A stretch of DNA of 37,191 nucleotides. It comes from a virus. Shown in pieces: positions 21,491-36,691 of the stretch (positions within the stretch are counted from its first letter, which is position 1; the number at the start of each line of letters is the position of its first letter). The notes beneath the pieces are model-generated. The model did no database searches. It was given only the letters and a program-made list of their open reading frames with translations, and had not been told where the DNA came from. A program made the position numbers and the translations under genes. The DNA lies in the IMG/VR virus record IMGVR_UViG_3300032288_000806, positions 1-37,191 of that record; one strand, written 5' to 3'.

Positions 21491-22699
21491 ATGTCTAACT
21501 CGATTTTAACAATTGACATGATTACGCGGAAGGCTCTGGAAATTCTGGAGAACAACCTCGTACTCACACGTAACGTAAACCGCCAGTACGACGACAGCTT
21601 CGCTGTTGAAGGTGCTAAAATTGGCTCGACCCTGCGTATCCGTCTTCCAGACCGTGCGCTTGTAACTGACGGCGCAGCCCTTCAGGTACAGGATGACAAC
21701 GAACAGTTCACAACGCTGACCGTTGCCAGCCAGAAGCACATCGGCGTCAACTTCACATCTGCTGAATTGACCATGCAGCTTGACGATTTCGCAGAGCGCG
21801 TTCTCAAGCCACGTATCTCGCAGCTTGCTTCCAGCATCGACGCTGACGTTGCAAACTCGTTTGCAACCATCGGTAACTCGGTCGGCACGCCCGGCACTAC
21901 ACCAGCTACTTCGGCTGTTCTTCTTGCTGCACAGCAGAAGCTGAACGAAAACGCTGCTGTAATGTCGCCACGCTACGCCACCGTCAACCCAGCAGCTAAC
22001 GCTGGCTTGGTCGAAGGTTTGAAGGGTCTCTTCAACCCAACCGACACGATCAGCAAGCAGTTCAAGAACGGCATGATGGGTACAGGCGTACTTGGTTTCG
22101 ACGAAATCAATATGTCGCAGTCCATCAAGCAGTTCACCACTGGTTCGCGTACTGCAACTGGCGGTTCGACTTCGGCTGCTGTCACCGCTGAAGGTGCAAC
22201 AACCATCGCCATCACTGGTGCTGGTAACGCTGCTGTCGTCAAAGCTGGGGACGTGTTCACTGTAGCTGACTGCTTCCAAGTCAACCCACAGACCCGTGAA
22301 AGCACTGGCTCGTTGTTCCAGTTCGTTGCGTTGGCAGATGTCACGCTCAACGCTTCTGGCGCAGGCAACATCACTGTTGCACCGGTCTACTCGGCTAACC
22401 ACGCTCTCGCCACAGTCAACACATTGCCCGGCAACAGCAAGGCAGTCGTGTTCGTCGGCGCAGCGTCCACACAGTACGCTCAGAACCTTGTATACCACAA
22501 GGACGCTATCACCTTCGCAACCGCCGACCTTCTGCTCCCACAGGGCGTAGATATGGCTTCGCGTCAGGTGCATAACGGCATCAGCTTGCGCGTTGTTCGT
22601 CAGTACGACATCAACAACGACCGTATGCCTTGCCGTATTGACGTTCTGTATGGCTACAGCACGATCCGTCCACAAATGGCCGTCCGGATGTGGGGTTAA
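21491..22699 (+). CDS. Major capsid protein, P22 coat-like
   Basis: The 402-residue protein matches P22-type coat proteins: MSNSILTIDMITRKALEILE at the start, LVLTRNVNRQYDDSFA, then KIGSTLRIRLPDR. Residues about 220-300 are rich in Ala, Gly and Thr and probably hold the inserted domain. The C-terminus (DRMPCRIDVLYGYSTIRPQM) is typical. The fold should be HK97-like without proteolytic maturation, since no prohead protease gene is present. Expression should be very high, and a GC-rich hairpin follows the gene. Confidence 0.94.
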   Translation: MSNSILTIDMITRKALEILENNLVLTRNVNRQYDDSFAVEGAKIGSTLRIRLPDRALVTDGAALQVQDDNEQFTTLTVASQKHIGVNFTSAELTMQLDDFAERVLKPRISQLASSIDADVANSFATIGNSVGTPGTTPATSAVLLAAQQKLNENAAVMSPRYATVNPAANAGLVEGLKGLFNPTDTISKQFKNGMMGTGVLGFDEINMSQSIKQFTTGSRTATGGSTSAAVTAEGATTIAITGAGNAAVVKAGDVFTVADCFQVNPQTRESTGSLFQFVALADVTLNASGAGNITVAPVYSANHALATVNTLPGNSKAVVFVGAASTQYAQNLVYHKDAITFATADLLLPQGVDMASRQVHNGISLRVVRQYDINNDRMPCRIDVLYGYSTIRPQMAVRMWG

Positions 22700-22708
22700 T
22701 TTAATCAT

Positions 22709-22730
22709 GGCCCTCGGTTCGCCGGGGGCC
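22709..22730 (+). other. Gene-end hairpin with UUCG loop after coat gene
   Basis: GGCCCTCGG (22709-22717) pairs with CCGGGGGCC (22722-22730), including one G-T pair, around a TTCG loop. UUCG is an extra-stable RNA tetraloop. No T-run follows. It may stabilise the coat mRNA or reduce transcription downstream. Confidence 0.65.
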
Positions 22731-22753
22731 AACTATCTTAAAGGATTTTTATT

Positions 22754-23837: not shown

Positions 23838-24548
23838 ATGGAAACGGCTGGGGACATAATCAACGGTTCGCTTAGGCTTCTAGGCGTTCTGGCAGAAGGC
23901 GAAACTCCCTCGGCTGAAACGTCGCAAGACGCCTTGCGCGCTATGGACCAGATGATTGATAGCTGGAACACCGAGCGCCTGTCCGTTTTCGCTACGCAAG
24001 ATCAGATATTCACATGGCCTGCCGGCGAACTGTCGCGCACGCTTGGTCCTAGCGGCGACTTTGTGGGCAACCGCCCTATCCTGCTTGAAGACAGCACATA
24101 TTTCAAAGACCCCGGCACTGGCGTTAGCTACGGCATCAAATTTATTAACCAGCAGCAGTATAACGGCATTGCGGTTAAGACGGTAACATCTACGTTTCCG
24201 CAGGTCATCTTCGTCAACAACACGTATCCCGACGTGGAGATGTACGTTTACCCGCGCCCGACGCGCGCTCTGGAATGGCATTTCATTTCGGTCGAAGAAC
24301 TGACGCAGCCGGCGACGCTGGCAACAGTCCTGCATTTCCCGCCCGGCTATCTGCGTGCGTTCCGCTACAACCTAGCCTGCGAACTAGCCCCTGAGTTTGG
24401 TGTTGAGCCATCGCCGCAAGTCCAGCGTATAGCTATGACATCTAAGCGCAACCTGAAGCGCATCAACAACCCAGATGACATCATGTCGATGCCATACAGC
24501 ATTGTGGCTACACGCCAGCGGTATAACATCTTCGCAGGAAACTACTAA
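23838..24548 (+). CDS. P22 gp4-like tail accessory factor
   Basis: The 236-residue protein starts with METAGDIINGSLRLLGVLAE and continues with an ALRAMDQMIDSWNTE helix and TWPAGE, the pattern of P22 gp4-type proteins. These bind below the portal ring, close the filled head and form the site for the tail fibres. The C-terminal region (RIAMTSKRNLKRINNPDDIM) is helical and basic. It overlaps the gp10-like gene by one base. In P22, gp4 also has muramidase activity, which cannot be judged here. Confidence 0.88.
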   Translation: METAGDIINGSLRLLGVLAEGETPSAETSQDALRAMDQMIDSWNTERLSVFATQDQIFTWPAGELSRTLGPSGDFVGNRPILLEDSTYFKDPGTGVSYGIKFINQQQYNGIAVKTVTSTFPQVIFVNNTYPDVEMYVYPRPTRALEWHFISVEELTQPATLATVLHFPPGYLRAFRYNLACELAPEFGVEPSPQVQRIAMTSKRNLKRINNPDDIMSMPYSIVATRQRYNIFAGNY

Positions 24549-26080
24549 TGAAGACGCCCATACTGGGCAGCGCGTATGTGGCCCGTTCAGTAAACGCTGC
24601 TGACGCGCGCATGATAAATATGTTCCCGGAAGTCGTACCGGAAGGCGGCATGGAGCCTGCGTTCCTACAGCGTTGCCCCGGCTTGCAGCTTCAACAGGTT
24701 GTTGGGGAAGGCCCGATCCGCGGGCTGTGGGCGCACCAGACGCGCGGTGATGACTTCTACGTCGTATCCGGCTTTGAAGTCTACAAGCTGTCCAGCCTAA
24801 CCGGAACGCCGATTAAGCTAGGCGACGTAACCGGCACAGGCCCAGTATCCATCGCCGACAACGGTACGCAGATATTCTTCGCCTGCAATCCTGACGCGTT
24901 TATTTACGACGAGTCAACCGACACGTTTGGGCAAATCACCGACCCTGACTTCCCCGGCGCGGTCACCGTCGGCTATCTAGACGGCTATTTCGTGTTCAAC
25001 GAACCAAACAGCCAGAAGATTTGGGTGACGCAGCTTTACGACGGCTTCCAGATTGACCCGCTAGAGTTTGCCAGCGCCGAAGGTAGCCCTGATGGCGTCG
25101 TCGGCCTGCTGGTAGACCACCGTGAATGCTGGGTATTCGGCACGGACTCCACCGAAGTGTGGTACAACTCCGGCGGCCTAGACTTCCCGCTTTCGCCGAT
25201 ACAAGGCGCGTTTAACGAAATCGGTTGCGCTGCGCCGCACTCTATCGCCAAGATGGACAACACTGTGTTCTGGCTGGGCGCTGACGCCCGCGGGCAGGGC
25301 GTTGTTTACAGAGCCGCTGGATATAACGCACAGCGCGTGTCCACACACGCGATTGAATGGCGCATCCAAAACTATCTAAACATGAGCGACGCTGTAGGGT
25401 ACACCTACCAGCAGGACGGCCACGCGTTCTACGTCCTGTCGTTCCCGTCCGCTGACGAGACGTGGGTGTTCGACGCATCCACTGGCGCATGGCACCAGCG
25501 GTCATCATATTCCGCCATCGCGCCGTCTGAAGGCGCGTTCGAGGCCGAATCGTTTTATTCCGGCGCATATTACGTCGTGCAACCAATTACAGCTTCCGGC
25601 AACAGCGGTGTGTTCTCGCGTCACCGCAGCAACTGCCAGTGTAACTTCCAAGGCAATATCATTGTCGGCGACTACGCTAACGGAAACGTCTACACGTTTG
25701 AACTAAATGTTTTTGAAGACAACGGGATCGCGCAGCGTTGGTTGCGGTCGTGGCGCGCGCTGCCGACAGGCCAAAACAATCTTCGCCGTACAGCAAACCA
25801 CTCCTTGCAGCTTGAGTGCGAAACGGGCGTCGGCCTGAACACCGGCCAAGGGAGCGACCCGCAAGCCATGCTTCGCTGGTCCGACGACGGCGGCCACACA
25901 TGGTCTAACGAACACTGGGCGTCTATGGGCAAGATCGGTGCAACTGGCACCCGCGTCATGTGGCGCCGACTTGGCATGACGCAGAAGCTGCGCGACCGCG
26001 TCTACGAAGTGTCCGGCAGTGACCCTGTCCGCATCTACCTAACCGGCGCTGAACTGCTGTTGAGCGGCACAAATGCCTAA
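24548..26080 (+). CDS. P22 gp10-like DNA stabilisation (tail hub) protein
   Basis: The 510-residue protein begins MKTPILGSAYVARSVNAADA followed by INMFPEVVPEGG, the hallmark of gp10-type proteins that seal the neck below gp4. The body is a long beta-propeller-like series (LWAHQTRGDDFYVVSGFEVY, VGLLVDHRECWVFGTDSTEV, VFWLGADARGQGVVYRA). The length is close to the P22 protein. It overlaps the following gene by 8 bases. Confidence 0.9.
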   Translation: MKTPILGSAYVARSVNAADARMINMFPEVVPEGGMEPAFLQRCPGLQLQQVVGEGPIRGLWAHQTRGDDFYVVSGFEVYKLSSLTGTPIKLGDVTGTGPVSIADNGTQIFFACNPDAFIYDESTDTFGQITDPDFPGAVTVGYLDGYFVFNEPNSQKIWVTQLYDGFQIDPLEFASAEGSPDGVVGLLVDHRECWVFGTDSTEVWYNSGGLDFPLSPIQGAFNEIGCAAPHSIAKMDNTVFWLGADARGQGVVYRAAGYNAQRVSTHAIEWRIQNYLNMSDAVGYTYQQDGHAFYVLSFPSADETWVFDASTGAWHQRSSYSAIAPSEGAFEAESFYSGAYYVVQPITASGNSGVFSRHRSNCQCNFQGNIIVGDYANGNVYTFELNVFEDNGIAQRWLRSWRALPTGQNNLRRTANHSLQLECETGVGLNTGQGSDPQAMLRWSDDGGHTWSNEHWASMGKIGATGTRVMWRRLGMTQKLRDRVYEVSGSDPVRIYLTGAELLLSGTNA

Positions 26081-26729: not shown

Positions 26730-27521
26730 ATGGCTGTTCTTGCTCCACAACCTAAAGCGCAATTCTTCGACGCCAGCGGCACTCCGCTGGTTGGCGGTAA
26801 GGTCTTTACCTATGCAGCCGGTACGACAACGCCGCTGGCTACGTATACGGATGCGTCGGCAGCTACGCCAAACACCAACCCTGTCATTCTAGACTCCCGC
26901 GGCGAATGTAACCTGTGGTTCTCTAACGCGACCAGCTACAAAGTGGTGTTGAAAAACGCCACTGACGAACTGCAATGGACCGTCGATAACATTGCGACCT
27001 ACGGCACCATCGCCAGCCAAAACTCCAACAACGTGGCTATAACCGGCGGTACGATCAGCGGCGTCACAATCACAACGTCCACTATCACCGGCGACATATC
27101 GGGCAACGCAGGCACCGTGACGAACGGCGTTTATCTGAACGCAGTGCAGACGCTGACAAACAAGACCATCACAGGTCTGGCGTCGGCATCAACGGTCAAA
27201 GACAGCCTCGGTACGGATTACACTATCGGCTTCCGTAGCATTCCGCAAAGCCTGAACACGACCGCTGCGGCGTCGGACGTCGGAAAGCATCTGTTTGTTT
27301 CCGCTACGACCACAGTTCCGTCGGGCGTGTTTGTGGCCGGCAACGAGTTTCTCGTTGTCAACAGCAGCGCCAGCACCATTACGCTGACGCAGGGCGCTGG
27401 CACGACGCTGCGGCTTGGCGGCACTGCGACCACAGGCAACCGCACCATCGCAGCCTACGGCGTCGCTAGCGTTCTTTGTACCGGCACAGAAACATTCTAT
27501 GTCACCGGCAACGTAACCTGA
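26730..27521 (+). CDS. Tail fibre protein
   Basis: The N-terminal 95 residues (LAPQPKAQFFDASGTPLVGG, FTYAAGTTTPLATYTDAS, NPVILDSRGECNLWF) form the virion-attachment domain known from many phage tail fibres and spikes. A short repeat shaft follows (NNVAITGGTISGVTITTSTI, TNGVYLNAVQTLTNKTI). The C-terminal 80 residues form a small beta domain (TITLTQGAGTTLRL). With 263 residues it is short for a fibre and has no enzymatic domain. It probably works with the glycine-rich adhesin at 17325. Confidence 0.82.
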   Translation: MAVLAPQPKAQFFDASGTPLVGGKVFTYAAGTTTPLATYTDASAATPNTNPVILDSRGECNLWFSNATSYKVVLKNATDELQWTVDNIATYGTIASQNSNNVAITGGTISGVTITTSTITGDISGNAGTVTNGVYLNAVQTLTNKTITGLASASTVKDSLGTDYTIGFRSIPQSLNTTAAASDVGKHLFVSATTTVPSGVFVAGNEFLVVNSSASTITLTQGAGTTLRLGGTATTGNRTIAAYGVASVLCTGTETFYVTGNVT

Positions 27522-27533
27522 TAGGACCGGCTC

Positions 27534-27872
27534 ATGCCAATTATCGCAGTAAACATCATCCCTGCTAAGAACATGGAAAACGCCGATACTGTGCAGTATG
27601 TGTCGCCAAGCAGCACCACGACTATCATTGACAAGTTTACCGCGACTAACTTCAGCAGCGGCATGGTCAACGTAAGCGTCAACTTGGCCGCGGTCAGCGA
27701 AGCGACCGGCAACAGCAACCTGATTGTCCAGACGCGGACGCTGCAACCCGGCGAGACATACACCTTTCCAGAAATCGTAGGCCACATCCTGCCGTCCGGC
27801 GGGTATGTTTCGACGCTTGCGTCGGCAGCAGCCGCAGTCAACCTGCGCGCGTCTGGCCGCGAAATCAGCTAA
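27534..27872 (+). CDS. Hypothetical virion-associated protein
   Basis: The 112-residue beta-rich protein (VQYVSPSSTTTIIDKFTATN, LIVQTRTLQPGETYTFPEI) resembles small phage proteins found after fibre genes. It has no membrane segment or catalytic motif. It may be a fibre chaperone or a minor virion protein. Its stop overlaps the ATG of the next gene by one base. Confidence 0.7.
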   Translation: MPIIAVNIIPAKNMENADTVQYVSPSSTTTIIDKFTATNFSSGMVNVSVNLAAVSEATGNSNLIVQTRTLQPGETYTFPEIVGHILPSGGYVSTLASAAAAVNLRASGREIS

Positions 27873-28291
27873 TGCTGGAGCGTAGCTACGACACTGCGTT
27901 TATTAACAAGGTCGTAAACGATCCTGCGGTAAGGCCGTATGTTGGTGGCGGCGTTGACGGCGACATAGACACACAGATACTTGTTGACAATCCTGACAAC
28001 TGGTTTCTGATGGGCGAACACGGCGGTTTTCTGTTTAGCGGAACTGCCCCCGGCGTCCGCGAAGTACACACGTTTATCTTGCCTAGCGGGCGCGGCGAAT
28101 GGGCCGCTGCCGCAAGGGCAAAAGCTATTGAATATCTGCGCGACCACGGCACGGAAAAGCTGTGGACTAAAATCGAGCCAGATAGTAAACACGTAATAAG
28201 CTATGCCCTTGAAGGGGGTATGCAAATCACTGACGAAATGGTAGAGTTGTTCGGTACACTTTATCAAATTTACCGGATGGAGTTAAACTAA
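27872..28291 (+). CDS. P22 gp14-like protein (DUF2824), GNAT-type fold candidate
   Basis: The 139-residue protein (LERSYDTAFINKVVNDPAVR, WFLMGEHGGFLFSG, REVHTFILPSGRGEWAAAAR) matches in layout the DUF2824 family that includes P22 gp14. It has the strand order of acetyltransferase-like proteins. As in P22 it lies directly before the ejection-protein genes, where gp14 is required for particle maturation or DNA delivery. An acyl-CoA binding loop is not obvious. It overlaps both neighbours by one base. Confidence 0.72.
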   Translation: MLERSYDTAFINKVVNDPAVRPYVGGGVDGDIDTQILVDNPDNWFLMGEHGGFLFSGTAPGVREVHTFILPSGRGEWAAAARAKAIEYLRDHGTEKLWTKIEPDSKHVISYALEGGMQITDEMVELFGTLYQIYRMELN

Positions 28292-29880
28292 TGCCAATCG
28301 CACCTGTAGTCGGCGCAGCGTTAATCGGCGGGACCGCTGCCGTCGCGGGGGGCGTTATGGCTAGTAACGCGTCTAAAAAAGCCGCTAATGCTCAGGCTCA
28401 AGCAGCTACTGCGGCAGCGCAGTCGCAGGAGCGCGCAGCAGCGTTGGCAGTAGAGGCGCAGCGTACCGGATCGGCTGAAGCTGTTGCAGCGGCAAAAGAA
28501 GCAGCCGCCACAGCGCAGCAGGCGCAGAATGAGGCAAATTTTCAAGCGCAGAATCTGGAGCGCCTGCGCTACGACGAAACGCGCATTGCGGACCAGACGG
28601 CGTTCACCGGCGCCCAAAAAGCCGCGGACACGGGTTTCGACGCTGCTCAAGCTGCATACCGGACTTCGTTCGCCGACGCACAGGCGGCGGCGGATGCGGG
28701 CTTTGGTACAGCATTAGCCGACGCCAACAGGGGTTTCGACACCGCCCTAGCTGACACCACTAGGGGTTTTGACGAGGCTCAAACTGCCGCGGAACTAGGC
28801 TACACCACCGCTGAAGATGCTTACAGACAAGCGTACCAGCGGCAGGGCGAATTTCAAGACCCGTTTATAAGAAGCGGCCTTACCGCCCAAGAGCAGATTA
28901 TGCAGCTTATGGGTCTGGGCGGCGATGTAAACGCTGCCAATTACGGCCAATACGCACGCGCTTTTGGTGCCGACCAGTTCGAGCAAGACCCCGGCTATGC
29001 TTTCCGTCAGTCGGAAGGCTTGAAAGGTCTAGAGCGTTCAGCATCCGCCCGTGGCGGCATATTGTCTGGCGGCGCGCTGAAGAATATCCAGCGGTTCGGC
29101 CAAGACTTAGCCAGCCAAGAATATCAAAACGCGTTCAACCGTTACCAGACTGAACGCGCCGCGCGCCTTAACACGCTTGGCGGTTTGGCATCCGCGGGCC
29201 AGTCAGCATCAAATGTCATGACGGGCGCCGCAGGGCAGCTTGGGTCAAACAGCGCGGCAAACGCTTTGGCGCGGGCGCAAGCGACATCGGCAAACTCTAT
29301 AGGCCGCGGCGCCGCAACAAGCAATATCGCTACAAACCGCGCGGCAACGACCGGCGGTCTTGCTATCAATCGCGGTCAATCCGCAGCAGCAAATGCTTTG
29401 GGGCTTGGGCAAGCAACAGCAGGAACCGCCTTGGGCCGTGCTAACACGACCGCCCAAAACCTTATGGCCCAGAACGAGGCGACCAGAGCAAACAACGCGG
29501 CGTATTACGGTAATTTAGGTAGCCTTACGTTGGCCCGCGGCCAGAACACCGCGCAGAACGCATACAACGTAGCCAATGCTGTTTCAGGCGGTGCCATGAA
29601 CTTGGCGAATGCCGCGTCGCAAGGGGCTTACAATGTCGGCAATGCACAGGCCACAGGCGCGATGAACACCGGCGCAGCCCGTGCGTCAGGCTACATCGGC
29701 CAAGCCAACGCGCTTAACAACGCTTTGGGCCAAGTCGCTGGTATGGCTATGCAGGCGCCACTGAACAACGCCATGATGAAATACTACGCTAACAATACCC
29801 CGTCAGCGCCCGCGGCGCCAAGCGGCGGCGGTTTTGGCTCTAGCACGGGCTTCTATCTGCCCGGCATCCCAAGGAACTAA
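28291..29880 (+). CDS. Ejection (internal virion) protein, gp7/gp20-like, with hendecad repeats
   Basis: The 529-residue protein is rich in alanine. Residues 5-25 form a glycine-zipper-like hydrophobic segment (PVVGAALIGGTAAVAGGVMA). Residues 103-179 are seven consecutive 11-residue repeats of the form x-G-F-x-x-A-x-x-A-x-x. The segment around 230-280 (QDPGYAFRQSEGLKGLERSA, GGILSGGALKNIQRFGQDLA) is conserved in P22-like DNA-transfer proteins. The rest is Ala/Asn/Gly-rich, low complexity. Such proteins leave the head first and form a conduit through the host envelope. The role is well supported by family and position; which P22 protein it replaces is unsure. Confidence 0.82.
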   Translation: MPIAPVVGAALIGGTAAVAGGVMASNASKKAANAQAQAATAAAQSQERAAALAVEAQRTGSAEAVAAAKEAAATAQQAQNEANFQAQNLERLRYDETRIADQTAFTGAQKAADTGFDAAQAAYRTSFADAQAAADAGFGTALADANRGFDTALADTTRGFDEAQTAAELGYTTAEDAYRQAYQRQGEFQDPFIRSGLTAQEQIMQLMGLGGDVNAANYGQYARAFGADQFEQDPGYAFRQSEGLKGLERSASARGGILSGGALKNIQRFGQDLASQEYQNAFNRYQTERAARLNTLGGLASAGQSASNVMTGAAGQLGSNSAANALARAQATSANSIGRGAATSNIATNRAATTGGLAINRGQSAAANALGLGQATAGTALGRANTTAQNLMAQNEATRANNAAYYGNLGSLTLARGQNTAQNAYNVANAVSGGAMNLANAASQGAYNVGNAQATGAMNTGAARASGYIGQANALNNALGQVAGMAMQAPLNNAMMKYYANNTPSAPAAPSGGGFGSSTGFYLPGIPRN

Positions 29881-29884
29881 TGAT

Positions 29885-31735
29885 ATGGCAAACCAAATGA
29901 TAGCCCTTCAAGCGCGTAACCCACAGCTTCCCGATCCTTCGCGGGCAGCAGCGCAGTATGCGAACATGATGAACATGGCGTCGCAACAGCGCGCGTCGCA
30001 GCTTCAAAGTGAGCGTATCCGTCAGGAGATGGAATATGCCCGCGCTGGCGAAGCCCGCGCCGCAGAAACGCAGGTTCTCGACATACGCGGGAAACAGTTA
30101 GATAACGAAGATAAAGAACTGGCGCGGCTCTACAAGATGGGTGCTGCCATTTTAGAAACTGAAGACCCGCCCGCACGCGAAGCTGCATATCAGAATTTAC
30201 TGGGTTTGATAGGAACCACATCCCCGCAACTTGGCGCTACGATGCGTCAAGTCGCCAGCACGTTCAACCCTAACGTGCTACAGGCCGCGATGATGGAGAC
30301 TGAACAATATTTTAATAAAAAATACGCGACGCCAATAGCTAGTTTGGAAATCCGGGAGGACGGCACGCCAGTGTCCGTTCAAGTCGGTGGCCTTAACCCT
30401 GAGCAAAGGCCAATATTCGACGCACCAGAAACGCCGATGGCTGCACCGCGTGCGACGCCTACCGCACCGCAAGCTGCGCCTCCTTCGGGGCCGATACCCA
30501 CAGGTAAATTTGGAGAGACCCGCGTTATCCGCCCAGAGTCCATACCTCTCACGCCGGACCAGCAAGATCATATCCGCCGGATGCAAGAAGGACTGGGTAT
30601 GACAAATACGCCAGCGTCCTTCTCGCCGGGCGCAAGCGCAGGGCAGATGTCGCCAGACATGGTCCCCGCCATTCTTGACTCTGCAATCAACACTGGCGTC
30701 ATGGCGCAGATTGACCTTGATCAGATGTTGGCGCTGGCACCCCCGCAAGCCCGTCAGGGGATTATGGATGTAATCCGCGACAACAAGATTGCTCTGCAAG
30801 CCGACGCACCATCGTTGGCCGCCAGCGCAATGCCCCAGCAGCAGCCGCCAATGGCCCCTAACCCCGTGGGAAGACAGCAATCGCAGTCCGCTGTTATGCG
30901 TGGACAAGCACCACAGGCGTCGCTTGCCGATCTAGGTGGTCAGCCAGAGATGCAGAATGTAATGGCGCAAACGCAACCCCGCACAATTACAAGACTTCAG
31001 CAACGCACCCCAAATGTGTCACCAACCCCCGGCATTTACAACGTACCTACCGGACAGGTAGCAGCGACATCGCAGGCACAACGTCCGTCAAAGCAAGAAG
31101 TGTTCGATACAGAGTTGGCAAAAATTGAAGCGCAACGCAAGGCTGGCCCCCCGCCGTCAACTCCACAGCAGAAACGCGCACGTAAAACAGAAGTGGCGAA
31201 CGCATACACCAAAACGCAGACGCTGGTAGACCGAGCGTATGACCCGAAAGAAGGTATTGTTTCGCTTGCCCGTAAAATCAAATCGCTTTCGCCCGACCAA
31301 AAGGAAGCTATTACCGGTTTGAGTGGGTACATCCCTTCTTTCCGGGGGTCTACTAAAGAAGCGGACACGCTTATCGGCAACTTAAAAGGTATTGTCACTG
31401 CATTGGGTAAGGACACTGCCGCGGCTTCAGGCAACATTGGGCCTATGGCGGCGCAAGAGTGGAAAACCGTTGCGGACATGATCGCCGACCTTAAACTTGA
31501 AGGTATGACGCCGCGCGCGCTTGACGCCCAAATGGACCGTATTATCAGACAAGTTGACCTCGCAACCAATCTTGCTCAACGTGTGTACGACATTCAGTTC
31601 AGCGATGATATTAAAGAGTACCCTGAGTTTAGGGTAAGAGGGAATCCGTCCGCCAGAACAAAAACGCCGGTAGTTAAAGGTGGGTCTAGGATTTCGCCTG
31701 ACATTGACAAGATATTGAAGAGCCGCGGCATATGA
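29885..31735 (+). CDS. Second ejection-protein candidate
   Basis: The start is taken at 29885 (MANQMIALQARNPQLPDPSR), four bases after the previous stop and behind AAGGAAC; an open frame from 29834 lies inside the previous gene. The 616-residue protein has a helical N-terminal third (MASQQRASQLQSERIRQEME, a coiled coil), a Pro/Gln/Ala-rich middle likely disordered (about 190-430) and a helical C-terminal third. It lies where P22 has gp20. Its stop overlaps the next ATG (ATGA). Function is inferred from position. Confidence 0.72.
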   Translation: MANQMIALQARNPQLPDPSRAAAQYANMMNMASQQRASQLQSERIRQEMEYARAGEARAAETQVLDIRGKQLDNEDKELARLYKMGAAILETEDPPAREAAYQNLLGLIGTTSPQLGATMRQVASTFNPNVLQAAMMETEQYFNKKYATPIASLEIREDGTPVSVQVGGLNPEQRPIFDAPETPMAAPRATPTAPQAAPPSGPIPTGKFGETRVIRPESIPLTPDQQDHIRRMQEGLGMTNTPASFSPGASAGQMSPDMVPAILDSAINTGVMAQIDLDQMLALAPPQARQGIMDVIRDNKIALQADAPSLAASAMPQQQPPMAPNPVGRQQSQSAVMRGQAPQASLADLGGQPEMQNVMAQTQPRTITRLQQRTPNVSPTPGIYNVPTGQVAATSQAQRPSKQEVFDTELAKIEAQRKAGPPPSTPQQKRARKTEVANAYTKTQTLVDRAYDPKEGIVSLARKIKSLSPDQKEAITGLSGYIPSFRGSTKEADTLIGNLKGIVTALGKDTAAASGNIGPMAAQEWKTVADMIADLKLEGMTPRALDAQMDRIIRQVDLATNLAQRVYDIQFSDDIKEYPEFRVRGNPSARTKTPVVKGGSRISPDIDKILKSRGI

Positions 31736-33777
31736 GCGTGCGTGATATACAGCGTCTGGAAGCAGGCATTCGCCAAGCGCACAAGCAAGGCGACACCAAA
31801 ACGGTTGACGTTCTTGGTGCCGAACTGCGTCGCGTCCATAAAATGCAGCCACCAAAAAAAGCGCCGCCTAAGCGTTCGTTGTTTGGCGCTGCTGTTGAAG
31901 CTATACCTAATATCCCATCTAGTGCGGCTGAGTTTGCGACTGGGTTTTACAACGCCGTCACTAACCCTATCGAAACAGCAGGCACGCTTCTCGACATTGC
32001 GGCAGGCGGTTTGAAGACGGGCGCGCAAAAAGCGTTGCCGAAAAACGTGTACAATTTCATCAATGAATTGGACGCTAACCCCAAAGCGGCGGAGCGGGCC
32101 ATGCGTACAGCGCGGCAATTTGGCGGCCAAATGGCCGACCGCTACGGTACATATGACGCTATTAAAAATACGCTGGCGACTGATCCGGTAGGCTTTGCGG
32201 CTGATGTGTCGTCGCTACTGGCGCCCGCCAGCGGGGCTGTTCGCACTGGCGGAAAAGCCGTGTCAAAAGTCGCGCCTAAAGTTGGGGTAAACGTTGAACG
32301 CGTAGCCAACGCTATGACGCGTGCAGGCGAAGCCACAAACCCAGTAAATGTGCTGCGGCCTGCTGGCCGCGCTGTTGCCAAAGCCGCAGAACGCGCACCA
32401 CTTAAAATCTCTAATGCTTTGGCGCCTAAGTCGGCGGCGTATATGGAAGCCGCTGAAGGCCGCGCACCAGAACTTATTGCCCAGCTTCGCGCGCGCGGTG
32501 AGATTGTGCCGGGCAGCAAACCAACCGCCGCGCAGCAAGCATCGCCTTTGGGCCTGACTAAATTTGCTGCGATGGGCGAAGCCAGCGCCAAAGCAAAGCC
32601 ATCTGAGTATCTGGCCCGCGCAAACGAAGCCGAAGCTGCGCGTCTTGCCAGCCTTCGTACAGTTGGTAAGACACCTGCCGACCGCACGGCGGCGGTCAAC
32701 GCGCGCAAGGCGGCTACAGACCCGCTATACGCTGCTGCTGAGACACAGAAGTTCCGCGCTGATCCGCAACTTATGCAGTTGGCCGATGACCCGTACATCA
32801 AGCAAGCGATGCCAGATGCGGAACGACTTTCTGCCTCGCAGGGCGTGACGTTTGATAACAATCCAACGCGGTATATCCACAACGTTAAAATTTCGTTGGA
32901 CAAGATGCTTACGAAAACCGGCGAGACTGCGCTGGCGTCTACTGAACGCGCGCAAGTTGCAAAGGTAAAGACGCAACTGGTTAATTGGCTGGAGTCTAGA
33001 TCGCCTGATTACAAGGCCGCGCGCACGACATTCGCCGAAAAGTCTAAGCCGATCAACCAAATGGAAGTCGGCCAATATCTTGAAGGTAAACTTACTGCAC
33101 CGCTAGAAGGCGGCACCGAGCGCGCTGGCGCGTTTGCGACCGCCGTAAAAGACGCGCCGGGAACGCTGAAGCGCGCGACTACTGGCGAAGCGCGGTTCAA
33201 AGAACTGACTGATGTGCTTACGCCTGAGCAGGCGGGGGTTGTTAATGCTATACGCGACGATTTAAATCGCGTTCAGACTACCAAAGCGCAAGCCCAGAAG
33301 GGTGCGTCCGCTGCGCCGCGCATCTCTCAGTTGGCGTCGCAGACCGGAGATATGCCTGCGTTGCTAAACCGCGCTGCGACTATTGCGAACACGATTTTCA
33401 ACCGTCTTCAAGGCCAAATCGACCGTAAATTGGCTATTGAAATTGCTACCGAAATGCTTGACCCGAAAGTAGTCGCCGCGGCCATAGAAAAAGCAGCGAC
33501 GCGGGAGAGACGAGCAGCCAAAACAGGCCGCGTTACGGGCGCCACCGCCCGTGGTACAGGCAAAGTCTTGAGTTCGACGGCGGCTAAGGTTGGCGCGCAG
33601 ACGCAGAACATCATGACGCAGGCGCAAAACCAAAACGCCATGAACAACATATACGGCATCACTGAATTCCCTGATTTCGATCCTGAAACTGGTGAGCCGC
33701 TGATAAACATTGATTACTCCGAAGGGTATCCTGTACCGATATACGGCAGGGTATCCCGCAACATGATGAGACGCTAA
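31732..33777 (+). CDS. Third ejection-protein candidate, gp16-like position
   Basis: The 681-residue protein is helical and basic, with alternating alanine-rich amphipathic segments (AAGGLKTGAQKALPKNVYNF, AADVSSLLAPASGAVRTGG). A weakly hydrophobic region around 150-170 could insert in a membrane. The C-terminal end is acidic and Pro/Tyr-rich (PDFDPETGEPLINIDYSEG). In P22 the last of three ejection proteins, gp16, forms the inner-membrane channel; this gene has the matching position and size. No lytic transglycosylase motif is visible. Confidence 0.72.
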   Translation: MSVRDIQRLEAGIRQAHKQGDTKTVDVLGAELRRVHKMQPPKKAPPKRSLFGAAVEAIPNIPSSAAEFATGFYNAVTNPIETAGTLLDIAAGGLKTGAQKALPKNVYNFINELDANPKAAERAMRTARQFGGQMADRYGTYDAIKNTLATDPVGFAADVSSLLAPASGAVRTGGKAVSKVAPKVGVNVERVANAMTRAGEATNPVNVLRPAGRAVAKAAERAPLKISNALAPKSAAYMEAAEGRAPELIAQLRARGEIVPGSKPTAAQQASPLGLTKFAAMGEASAKAKPSEYLARANEAEAARLASLRTVGKTPADRTAAVNARKAATDPLYAAAETQKFRADPQLMQLADDPYIKQAMPDAERLSASQGVTFDNNPTRYIHNVKISLDKMLTKTGETALASTERAQVAKVKTQLVNWLESRSPDYKAARTTFAEKSKPINQMEVGQYLEGKLTAPLEGGTERAGAFATAVKDAPGTLKRATTGEARFKELTDVLTPEQAGVVNAIRDDLNRVQTTKAQAQKGASAAPRISQLASQTGDMPALLNRAATIANTIFNRLQGQIDRKLAIEIATEMLDPKVVAAAIEKAATRERRAAKTGRVTGATARGTGKVLSSTAAKVGAQTQNIMTQAQNQNAMNNIYGITEFPDFDPETGEPLINIDYSEGYPVPIYGRVSRNMMRR

Positions 33778-34963: not shown

Positions 34964-35131
34964 TTCGTTGCGGGACAAATAGGGGCATCGCCCCTTTGCA
35001 GGGTCGTAAAGCCAGCAGTGAACCTTATCGACAATACTGTCGCAATCGTCGTCGAAATCGCTGCATACAGGTGGACGCGCTTGCAACTTTACCTCGCACT
35101 CGTCCATTTGCTTATCCGCTATATCAAACAT
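34958..35131 (-). CDS. Cysteine-rich small protein, 57 residues
   Basis: The frame begins MFDIADKQMDECEVKLQARP and has five cysteines (12, 23, 30, 39, 49), with CDSIVDKVHCW and GRCPYL near the end. It starts 8 bases before the end of the helicase gene. The cysteine spacing suggests metal binding. It is flanked by two copies of a 27-base sequence carrying the ribosome-binding site, so it may have arrived by a local duplication or insertion. Confidence 0.68.
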   Translation of the reverse strand: MFDIADKQMDECEVKLQARPPVCSDFDDDCDSIVDKVHCWLYDPAKGRCPYLSRNET

Positions 35132-36437
35132 TTTTCAATTCCTCTAATGCTATGTCGGACACCGCACGCTTGTCGTGCAGCGCCGCCCATATGCGTTCAT
35201 CAATACTCTTCTCGGTCATCATCACGTAGACCCAGACATCCTTAGTCTGGCCGCTGCGGTGCAGGCGCCCGACCGTCTGTTCGTACAACTCCAGCGACCA
35301 CGGCAGCGACAGGAACACCATGTGGCATCCGCCGTGCTGTAGGTTCAAGCCGTGGCCTGCCGACTTAGGGTGAGCCAGCAGCAGTTCGACCTGCCCTGCG
35401 TTCCAGCGTTCGATGACGTTGTCGTCATCCATTGTCTGCGCGTGCGGGAAGCGGCGCTTCAGTTCCGCCAACTCTTCCTGATAGGTGTAGGCGATGATGG
35501 TGTTGGCCCGCTGGTTCTCCGCCAGCAGTTCTTCCAGCCGGTCGAACTTGTGGCTGCTGAACCAGATGGACGGCGTGCCAGCGTCGCGGTTGTAGACAAA
35601 GCCGGACGCCATCTGTTGCAGCTTGGTCGTCACCGACGCTGCGTTCTGCGCTACAATCTGGTCGGCGCCGAAACGCGTTACGTATTCGCGCTTCATCTCA
35701 TCATATGGTTTACGATTTGCTAAGGGAACGCGCACTTCATTAACATGACAGGGCGGCAGCTTGTCCTTGTACTCGCCCGGCTCCAGCACGAACGTCGCAG
35801 GGCGGATGCGCTGCATGACTTGCTCCAGCGCGCCGGCTGCCGGCACCCACTGGCCGAAGTCGCGGTTGGTGCAGATGAAATACTGCTGCATGAACGCGCC
35901 CTTGGCACGGCCCAGCAGCGTCTGGTCAATGATCTTGCACTGGCCGAAGACATCCTCCAGCCCGTTCGACGTGAACGAGCCGGTCAAGCCCCAGCGCACC
36001 TTGACGTTAGCCAGCAGCTTGTCCAGCGCCTTGAAGCGTTTGCCGCTGGGGTTCTTTAGCCGCGTCAGTTCGTCGAACACAATTCCGTCGAAGCTGGATA
36101 AATCCTCTAGCTTATCTAAGTTATCATAGTTAATGACGACCGCACTGGCGTCGCTCTGCAACGCATCCACCCTTTGCGCTGGCGTGCCGACAGCCAGAGC
36201 AGGGACGACGCCAGACCACTTCGGCGCTTCGACCGGCCACACATCCGTACAGACGCGCTTCGGCGCTACCACCAGCCAGCGTTTGACATGGCCGTCGCGC
36301 AGCATCTCATCCATCGCCGTCAAGGTAATGGCGGTCTTGCCCGCGCCGACAGGCGCAAGGATCATGGCGCGGTCGCGTTCGTACAGGAACGTCGCAGCCT
36401 CTTGCTGGTATGGCCTTAGCTGAAGCGTTTTATCCAT
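35124..36437 (-). CDS. SNF2/SF2-type DNA helicase
   Basis: The start is placed at 36437 (MDKTLQLRPYQQEAATFLYE), because GGAGG lies 11 bases upstream; this gives 437 residues. It has a Q-like motif (LRPYQQ), Walker A APVGAGKT (28-35), motif II DELT in place of DEAH, motif III-like LTGS, and motifs V-VI (SAGHGLNL, QTVGRLHRSGQ). The layout is that of compact phage SNF2-type ATPases, which translocate on double-stranded DNA. It follows and overlaps the VRR-NUC gene by 22 bases, a common phage pairing for recombination or replication restart. No other domain is seen. Confidence 0.92.
   Translation of the reverse strand: MDKTLQLRPYQQEAATFLYERDRAMILAPVGAGKTAITLTAMDEMLRDGHVKRWLVVAPKRVCTDVWPVEAPKWSGVVPALAVGTPAQRVDALQSDASAVVINYDNLDKLEDLSSFDGIVFDELTRLKNPSGKRFKALDKLLANVKVRWGLTGSFTSNGLEDVFGQCKIIDQTLLGRAKGAFMQQYFICTNRDFGQWVPAAGALEQVMQRIRPATFVLEPGEYKDKLPPCHVNEVRVPLANRKPYDEMKREYVTRFGADQIVAQNAASVTTKLQQMASGFVYNRDAGTPSIWFSSHKFDRLEELLAENQRANTIIAYTYQEELAELKRRFPHAQTMDDDNVIERWNAGQVELLLAHPKSAGHGLNLQHGGCHMVFLSLPWSLELYEQTVGRLHRSGQTKDVWVYVMMTEKSIDERIWAALHDKRAVSDIALEELKNV
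35129..35155. repeat. 27-bp start-leader repeat, copy 2
   Basis: This copy differs by one base from 34937-34963. On the minus strand it encodes the last residues of the helicase (ALEELKNV) and supplies the ribosome-binding site and ATG of the 57-residue gene. Confidence 0.85.
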
Positions 36438-36691
36438 GCGTCTACATCCTCCACCGACCATAAGCACGCGTAGTGCTGCTTCGTGTGCGCCATCTCATCT
36501 GCAAAGATACGCTGCAACGCAGACAGGCGTCCGTTAGGCTGTTTAATCTCTATGAACCAAGCCTCGCCGTTAGGCATACAGGCTATGCGGTCGGCAACGC
36601 CTATCTGTGTAACGCTGCGGAACTTGTAGGCAAAACCGCCGCGCGCCCGCACGTGTTTACAGAAGTATCGCTCTATCTCTTTCTCAGTCAT
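36416..36691 (-). CDS. VRR-NUC nuclease
   Basis: The 91-residue protein is a stand-alone VRR-NUC domain, a PD-(D/E)XK-type nuclease. The active site is G31-V-A-D34-R, E48-I-K50 (FIEIKQP) and Q60. In bacteriophages such proteins act as structure-specific nucleases and are often encoded with an SNF2 helicase, as here. It is the first gene of the short leftward unit, close to the divergent promoter. Confidence 0.93.
   Translation of the reverse strand: MTEKEIERYFCKHVRARGGFAYKFRSVTQIGVADRIACMPNGEAWFIEIKQPNGRLSALQRIFADEMAHTKQHYACLWSVEDVDAWIKRFS

Follow-up and report, generated by a model that had tools for sequence, protein, structure and literature searches.

Matched 11-residue steps in two repeat arrays point to an antiparallel hairpin in a long phage ejection protein

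Introduction

Two arrays of 11-residue units, which differ in sequence and flank a conserved core in a long phage ejection protein, change length together across its relatives, the units added to one array equalling those added to the other in all but one of the long proteins measured. This paired-unit rule is the surprising element of our findings, and in the open-licence literature we found no paper linking paired-unit length change to phage ejection proteins, although the paired-length principle itself is already known from chemoreceptors, where the units are of seven residues. We consider it highly probable that the arrays, here called A and B, are the arms of one antiparallel helical hairpin.

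The ejection proteins of short-tailed phages refold on exit, which makes the path of the DNA across the envelope an open structural question. Here, evolution supplies structural evidence without a structure, in that the steps of two unrelated arrays have stayed equal in number and level across 14 changes; matched steps of this kind would fix the topology of an antiparallel hairpin and would allow tube length to be predicted from sequence. Natural length variants with 9 to 15 added units are already on hand, as is a pair of near twins of which one is matched and the other mismatched (L324 and L322).

Results

An ejection protein in the place of P22 gp7 and T7 gp14

The window, that is, the whole stretch of DNA analysed, is a virus record of 37,191 bases (IMGVR_UViG_3300032288_000806) that encodes a P22-type coat protein (PF11651), a portal protein (PF16510) and an Hc3 head-closure or hub protein. 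The ejection protein gene (28291..29880, plus strand, as are all features below unless stated) specifies 529 residues, of which 159-349 match the profile phrog_598 ('DNA ejection', E 2e-25), a match that bears out the identity proposed in the initial annotation. With the tail hub upstream and two larger genes (616 and 681 aa) downstream, it occupies the slot of P22 gp7 or T7 gp14 in a P22-like podovirus, and PHROG 598 is also matched by 54 of 54 short relatives. The protein is probably injected ahead of the DNA by a short-tailed bacterial virus. Neither Pfam nor NCBIfam gave a match to the 529-residue protein, and Pfam over 33 members of the family returned only two weak matches, each in a single member; PDB sequence searches, which may miss distant kinship such as one to phiX174 H, returned no match at E <= 1, and a tRNA search found none.

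By hydropathy, a hydrophobic, small-residue-rich segment at residues 1-25 (28291..28365) is a putative membrane segment. Such a membrane-type segment is a feature of the P22 gp7 class, and hydropathy indicates it in all 34 long proteins, where no charge occurs in the first ~22 residues, a hydrophobic stretch with many small residues, much as had been proposed for the N-terminus of the window protein. The most hydrophobic 19-residue stretch starts near the N-terminus in 34/34 long proteins and in each of the 69 short proteins scored.

Two arrays around a conserved core

The initial annotation had divided residues 103-179 into seven consecutive 11-residue units, which correspond exactly to 28597..28827 and repeat far beyond chance. 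Aligned with itself at offset 11, this stretch scores 1.79 per position, a value equalled by 0 of 2000 shuffles at any offset from 5 to 29, and a chance repeat is thereby ruled out. Position 3 is F or Y and position 6 is A in all seven units, with G at position 2 and A at position 9 in five units each. The units themselves are real, but they had been bounded too narrowly, and the second array, the hairpin and the matching of the arms had been overlooked. Period 11 covers nearly the whole 529-residue protein, the middle excepted: the best offset is 11 (or its double, 22) in every 66-residue segment that begins between residues 1 and 144 or between residues 276 and 441. A second array, at residues 317-480, scores 1.00 per position (reached in 0/2000 shuffles), and the stretch 180-310 is non-repetitive, its best score being equalled by 611 of 2000 shuffles. 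The seven units are the crispest and most regular part of array A, within a larger two-array architecture around a conserved core.

Array A, the candidate outgoing arm, extends over residues 36-175 (28396..28815) and array B, the candidate returning arm, over residues 313-462 (29227..29676); both are delimited by offset-11 periodicity, by the predicted helices described below and by the table of units, and each stands 12 units above the short class. Between them lies the conserved, non-repetitive core (residues 176-312; 28816..29226), which is common to the long and short classes, would form the turn region and has low model confidence at 200-263. Array B is followed by the ARASGY anchor (residues 463-468), again common to both classes, and the C-terminal tail (29677..29877).

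In both arrays the period is that of a hendecad, as the initial annotation had it for A and as in phiX174 H. The best hydrophobic angle, averaged over 34 proteins, is 98.0 degrees in A and 99.0 degrees in B, against reference angles of 98.2 for 11/3 and 102.9 for 7/2. A heptad coiled coil is therefore out, given an angle of 98-99 rather than 102.9, and the seven-residue units of chemoreceptor (MCP) hairpins are absent, the period being 11. Nor are A and B copies of one unit: in the window protein, the best score between them is 0.16, against 0.98 and 1.03 within the arrays. Since A and B differ in sequence, duplication of one arm into the other does not account for their matching.

The arms also differ in chemistry. 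P, H and C are absent from both in 34/34 long proteins; D and E together make up 13.2% of A against 2.2% of B, and N and Q 13.2% against 21.2% (34 proteins). Net charge ranges from -10 to -5 in A and from -1 to +6 in B, with -10 and +6 in the window protein. B is the less acidic arm in all 34 and the richer in N and Q in 33. One relative, L024 (2418-4067), has an alanine-rich array A of another style (AQAAQQDAAAK-like) that nevertheless comprises 14 units, as does its array B; a search using the L024 array found L024 itself only.

Relatives and size classes

Scans of viral contigs, for which the best 80 matches listed were kept, yielded at least 407 loci, a sample that is not exhaustive. Of these 407, 13 were cut at the C-terminal end, 281 were duplicates and one was without a match, leaving 112 distinct complete proteins. 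Arm counts omit seven of these in which an anchor is missing or displaced (L219, L396, L399, L401, L403, L406 and L407, the anchor of L403 being displaced, with A 0 and B 18), so that 105 proteins were measured: 34 long (436-583 residues, the window protein included) and 71 short (229-283 residues). The short relatives are without both arrays. Among the first 59 distinct proteins, the 11-residue period forms a strong segment in all 24 long ones; among the short ones it is seen only in L059, L060 and L065, briefly and near the N-terminus. On a core-only tree (137 columns, a quick method that left many forks unresolved), the long proteins form one clade with support 98. Variation of repeat number among relatives had been suggested as a check, and repeat number does vary, from 9 to 15 added units across the long proteins.

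Elsewhere, relatives were sparser. A scan of 55 genome-contig stretches found no relative, and tblastn of 50,697 annotated phage records gave 34 matches, none covering 80% of the query. Ten homologues from annotated phages are proteins of 228-343 residues, two of which (L409 and L413) have a significant 11-period stretch. In L409 (MW202483.1; 306 residues) the B arm is 62 residues, or 4 units above the short class, and its A arm would also stand 4 units above if the Q at residue 10, picked by eye and left out of the counts, is taken as the anchor; this is a lead, and L409 is possibly an independent or an intermediate case. BFVD contained two matches at E <= 0.001, both to proteins of uncultured phages whose names are uninformative. 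A predicted-structure library contains a 571-residue 'DNA transfer protein' of an uncultured phage, so long forms exist in other collections.

The arms change length in matched steps

Arm A was taken as the stretch between the N-terminal anchor and the core, and arm B as the stretch that separates the core from the ARASGY anchor. By this measure, 71 of 71 short proteins have an A of 8 and a B of 18. Both arms surpass these values by an identical multiple of 11 in 33 of 34 long proteins, the number of added units, counted in A, being 9 in two proteins, 10 in one, 11 in one, 12 in eighteen, 13 in four, 14 in seven and 15 in one. In 104 of the 105 measured proteins, long and short together, B is longer than A by exactly 10 residues. 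When B was shuffled among the 34 long proteins, at most 22 were equal in 100000 trials (mean 11.3), none of which reached 33; after clustering at 80% identity, 14 of 15 were equal, again reached in 0/100000 shuffles. The core-only tree requires 14 changes of A, 15 of B and 15 of the two taken jointly, so that all 14 changes in A coincide with changes in B. Independent variation of the arms is contradicted both by the equality in 33 of 34 proteins and by these joint changes.

Internal landmarks indicate where units are gained and lost. With NLER or DFARA in A and YYG or FYG in B, landmarks could be located in both arms of 31 of 34 long proteins; in the window protein the landmarks are NLER at residues 88-91 (28552..28563) and YYG at residues 405-407 (29503..29511), which would lie opposite each other in the hairpin register. 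On either side of the landmarks, towards the core and away from it, the two arms have equal numbers of units in 30 of 31 proteins, L322 being the exception. L015 and L349, on separate branches, have each gained one far-side unit in both arms, and the remaining gains and losses fall on the core side, also in both arms. Core-side units thus pair with core-side units, which argues for an antiparallel and not a parallel arrangement; parallel pairing would match the core side of one arm with the far side of the other, and this is not seen. At the level of the protein sequences, then, the two arrays, their hendecad period, their matched unit numbers and their matched levels are all demonstrated.

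The sole exception, L322 (2062-3672), combines 12 units in A with 14 in B, against 12 and 12 in its near twin L324. Its extra stretch lies inside near-identical DNA repeats, with 72 identical bases at a 66-base shift, and the mismatch may represent a fresh unpaired duplication or a misassembly; it still counts against the rule.

Predicted structure

AlphaFold2, run on the 529-residue protein with 33 long relatives, predicted two very long helices, at residues 15-194 and 260-499, with block mean pLDDT of 83-98 over residues 41-180 and 81-98 over 311-460. Confidence was low at 1-21, at 200-237 and in the tail, pTM was 0.40, and the five models span 51 to 74 in mean pLDDT. Helix rather than disorder had been anticipated for the repeat region, and high-confidence helix is what the model places there. 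A model of a short-class protein reached a mean pLDDT of 58.8, too low to show a hairpin there. Two long helices (predicted at a pTM of 0.40) and arms of matched length would be compatible with a hairpin of the T7 gp14 type in the window protein.

A Foldseek search of the PDB gave 66 matches at E <= 10 and none at E <= 0.001; the list, none of it significant, includes coiled-coil proteins such as Rad50, MukB and chemoreceptors. VIA-align laid residues 36-460 of the model in order along the Thermotoga chemoreceptor hairpin 2ch7_B, over 307 of 307 residues (Z 12.8, rmsd 8.2), although long helices reach such Z values without kinship. In this alignment the residue numbers of hairpin partners sum to ~495, and those of the landmarks to 493 (88 + 405).

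The long form travels with the tail hub

The tail hub or head-closure protein of the window (Hc3, P22 gp10-like; 510 aa; 24548..26080; phrog_578, E 4e-126) is the version found with the long class. On a hub tree of 59 loci the long/short label changes once, whereas on a tree of the next ejection gene (99 loci) it changes 14 times, all of them forced by well-supported branches; for the 54 loci having both genes, the next ejection gene requires 10 label changes and the hub one. Complete hubs are of 510-511 residues in 3/3 long loci and of 476 in 24/24 short loci. The next ejection gene (616 aa; 29885..31735) and the third (681 aa; 31732..33777) are assigned by position only, to the places of P22 gp20 or T7 gp15 and of P22 gp16 or T7 gp16 respectively, and neither product matches a PHROG. 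The size range of the next ejection gene overlaps between long and short loci, and compensation through its length is therefore out.

A 263-aa protein (26730..27521) accompanies every long ejection gene examined. It is near full length in 33/33 long loci, seven of them cut at the locus edge, and occurs in 8 of 60 short loci, where only the L160 protein scores like those of the long class. Its first 90 residues match phrog_26190, a family of unknown function, and by eye it is putatively fibre- or spike-like. On these trees and counts, the long form goes together with the hub and the tail protein but is not tied to the tunnel-type partner. That it segregates with the hub may reflect functional fit, or plain shared descent of a block of structural genes.

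The position immediately upstream of the ejection gene has seen gene swaps in long and short loci alike, with a homologue present in 8/33 long and 22/66 short loci. This slot (27872-28291) is occupied in relatives by unrelated genes (139, 355, 180+151 or 153-154 residues), and the preceding 112-residue gene is constant.

Discussion

A hairpin that may form part of a DNA conduit

We propose that A is the outgoing and B the returning arm of a very long hairpin, with the conserved core at the turn. Each hendecad added to the outgoing arm would need one level with it on the returning arm, and arm length would consequently move in matched 11-residue (1.65 nm) steps. With a helix rise of 1.5 angstrom per residue, 9 to 15 added units correspond to 15-25 nm and 12 units to 20 nm, so that, compared with the short class, each arm would gain some 20 nm in the window protein and 15-25 nm across the relatives, distances that approach the width of the periplasm.

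The fuller explanation, in which the hairpin is a wall piece of a DNA tube, strikes us as reasonably probable. After ejection, several hairpins would lie side by side, as six copies of T7 gp14 do, and form a straight tube prolonging the tail. We infer the oligomer, the tube, its copy number, the side facing the lumen, insertion into a membrane and which membrane that is. By analogy with T7, where a gp6.7 helix is described as binding both the nozzle and the gp14 turn (PMC11784390), the turn, here the core, would sit at the tail hub, with the termini at the far end and the hydrophobic N-terminus entering the membrane. Arm B, with few acidic residues and many N, Q and R, would line the DNA side, and acidic arm A would face outward. 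As a further and tentative step, the hairpin might serve as an evolvable ruler, in which paired hendecads set the reach of the tube from hub to membrane in 1.65-nm steps, the long form spans most of the periplasm, and the hub dictates the form while the tunnel protein is exchangeable.

The length evidence speaks throughout for pairing and not for a lumen, and would serve equally an antiparallel A-B pair that builds a rod, a strut or a coil internal to the virion, wrapped round the portal or acting as a packing element. In the virion, T7 gp14 is reported to wind round the portal barrel in another fold (PMC11784390), a state that the arrays could likewise serve. We nevertheless think such a role unlikely, since two antiparallel helices are the ejected, channel-forming state of T7 gp14 in the same account (PMC11784390), and the acid-poor, amide- and arginine-rich arm B resembles the lining of the phiX174 H tube, given as mainly amide and guanidinium groups (PMC7354561).

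Matched lengths and levels would be expected equally if A paired with B of a neighbouring subunit, in a domain-swapped or interlocked tube wall. That arrangement appears quite improbable, as the single-chain model gives both arms as confident long helices and the T7 gp14 hairpins, as described, lie within one chain (PMC11784390). That A alone forms an amphipathic helix lying on a membrane or building a tube, in the 11-mer manner of synucleins and apolipoproteins, as the initial annotation held, fits its hendecad period and hydrophobic face (best angle 98.0 degrees) but is very improbable, because outside L322 every length change in A comes with one in B, a coupling for which a free membrane helix would have no use, and A is acidic (net -10 to -5); membrane binding by the repeat region itself was backed by none of the analyses run.

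Relation to known systems

The paired hairpin that we favour can be set beside several described proteins. With P22 gp7 and T7 gp14 the window protein shares its gene place, a hydrophobic N-terminus and, through PHROG 598, membership of the P22 gp7 class. Ejected T7 is described as having six gp14 subunits, each a pair of antiparallel helices connected through a short loop, that extend the tail channel (PMC11784390); the likeness is one of analogy, no homology by sequence or fold being established here. P22 gp7 and T7 gp14 are listed at 229 and 196 residues (PMC8954989), and some 12 copies of gp7 are reported to be injected by P22 (PMC8402733), whereas the long proteins have 436-583 residues, arms that are both 9-15 hendecads longer, and the matched unit rule.

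The hendecads recall phiX174 H, a DNA-conducting tube of ten helices in which hendecads are followed by heptads, but again by analogy only: H makes a single pass with three hendecads (1-3 in Table 1 of PMC7354561), and in the long proteins each arm of the proposed pair carries as many as 15 extra hendecads. The paired-length principle is that of chemoreceptor hairpins, which have a conserved tip and whose length is stated to vary by symmetric seven-residue insertions and deletions (PMC5907407), giving length classes through symmetric changes in both arms; the units here are of 11 and not 7 residues, the protein is a phage ejection protein and not a receptor, and this too is analogy only. The schitovirus DEV proteins gp73 and gp72, compared by description only, provide a similar ejection-channel setting, with a small membrane ejection protein and a tunnel protein whose inner channel is positively charged (PMC10925440); unlike for the window protein, no repeat arrays are described for them in the passages of that source drawn on here.

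Other open frames in the window

Two further long open frames were observed. A 408-codon frame with a TTG start (21506-22732) runs antisense to the coat gene and is probably an effect of composition. At the right end, a 447-codon minus-strand frame with a GTG start (35124-36467) overlaps several small plus-strand frames.
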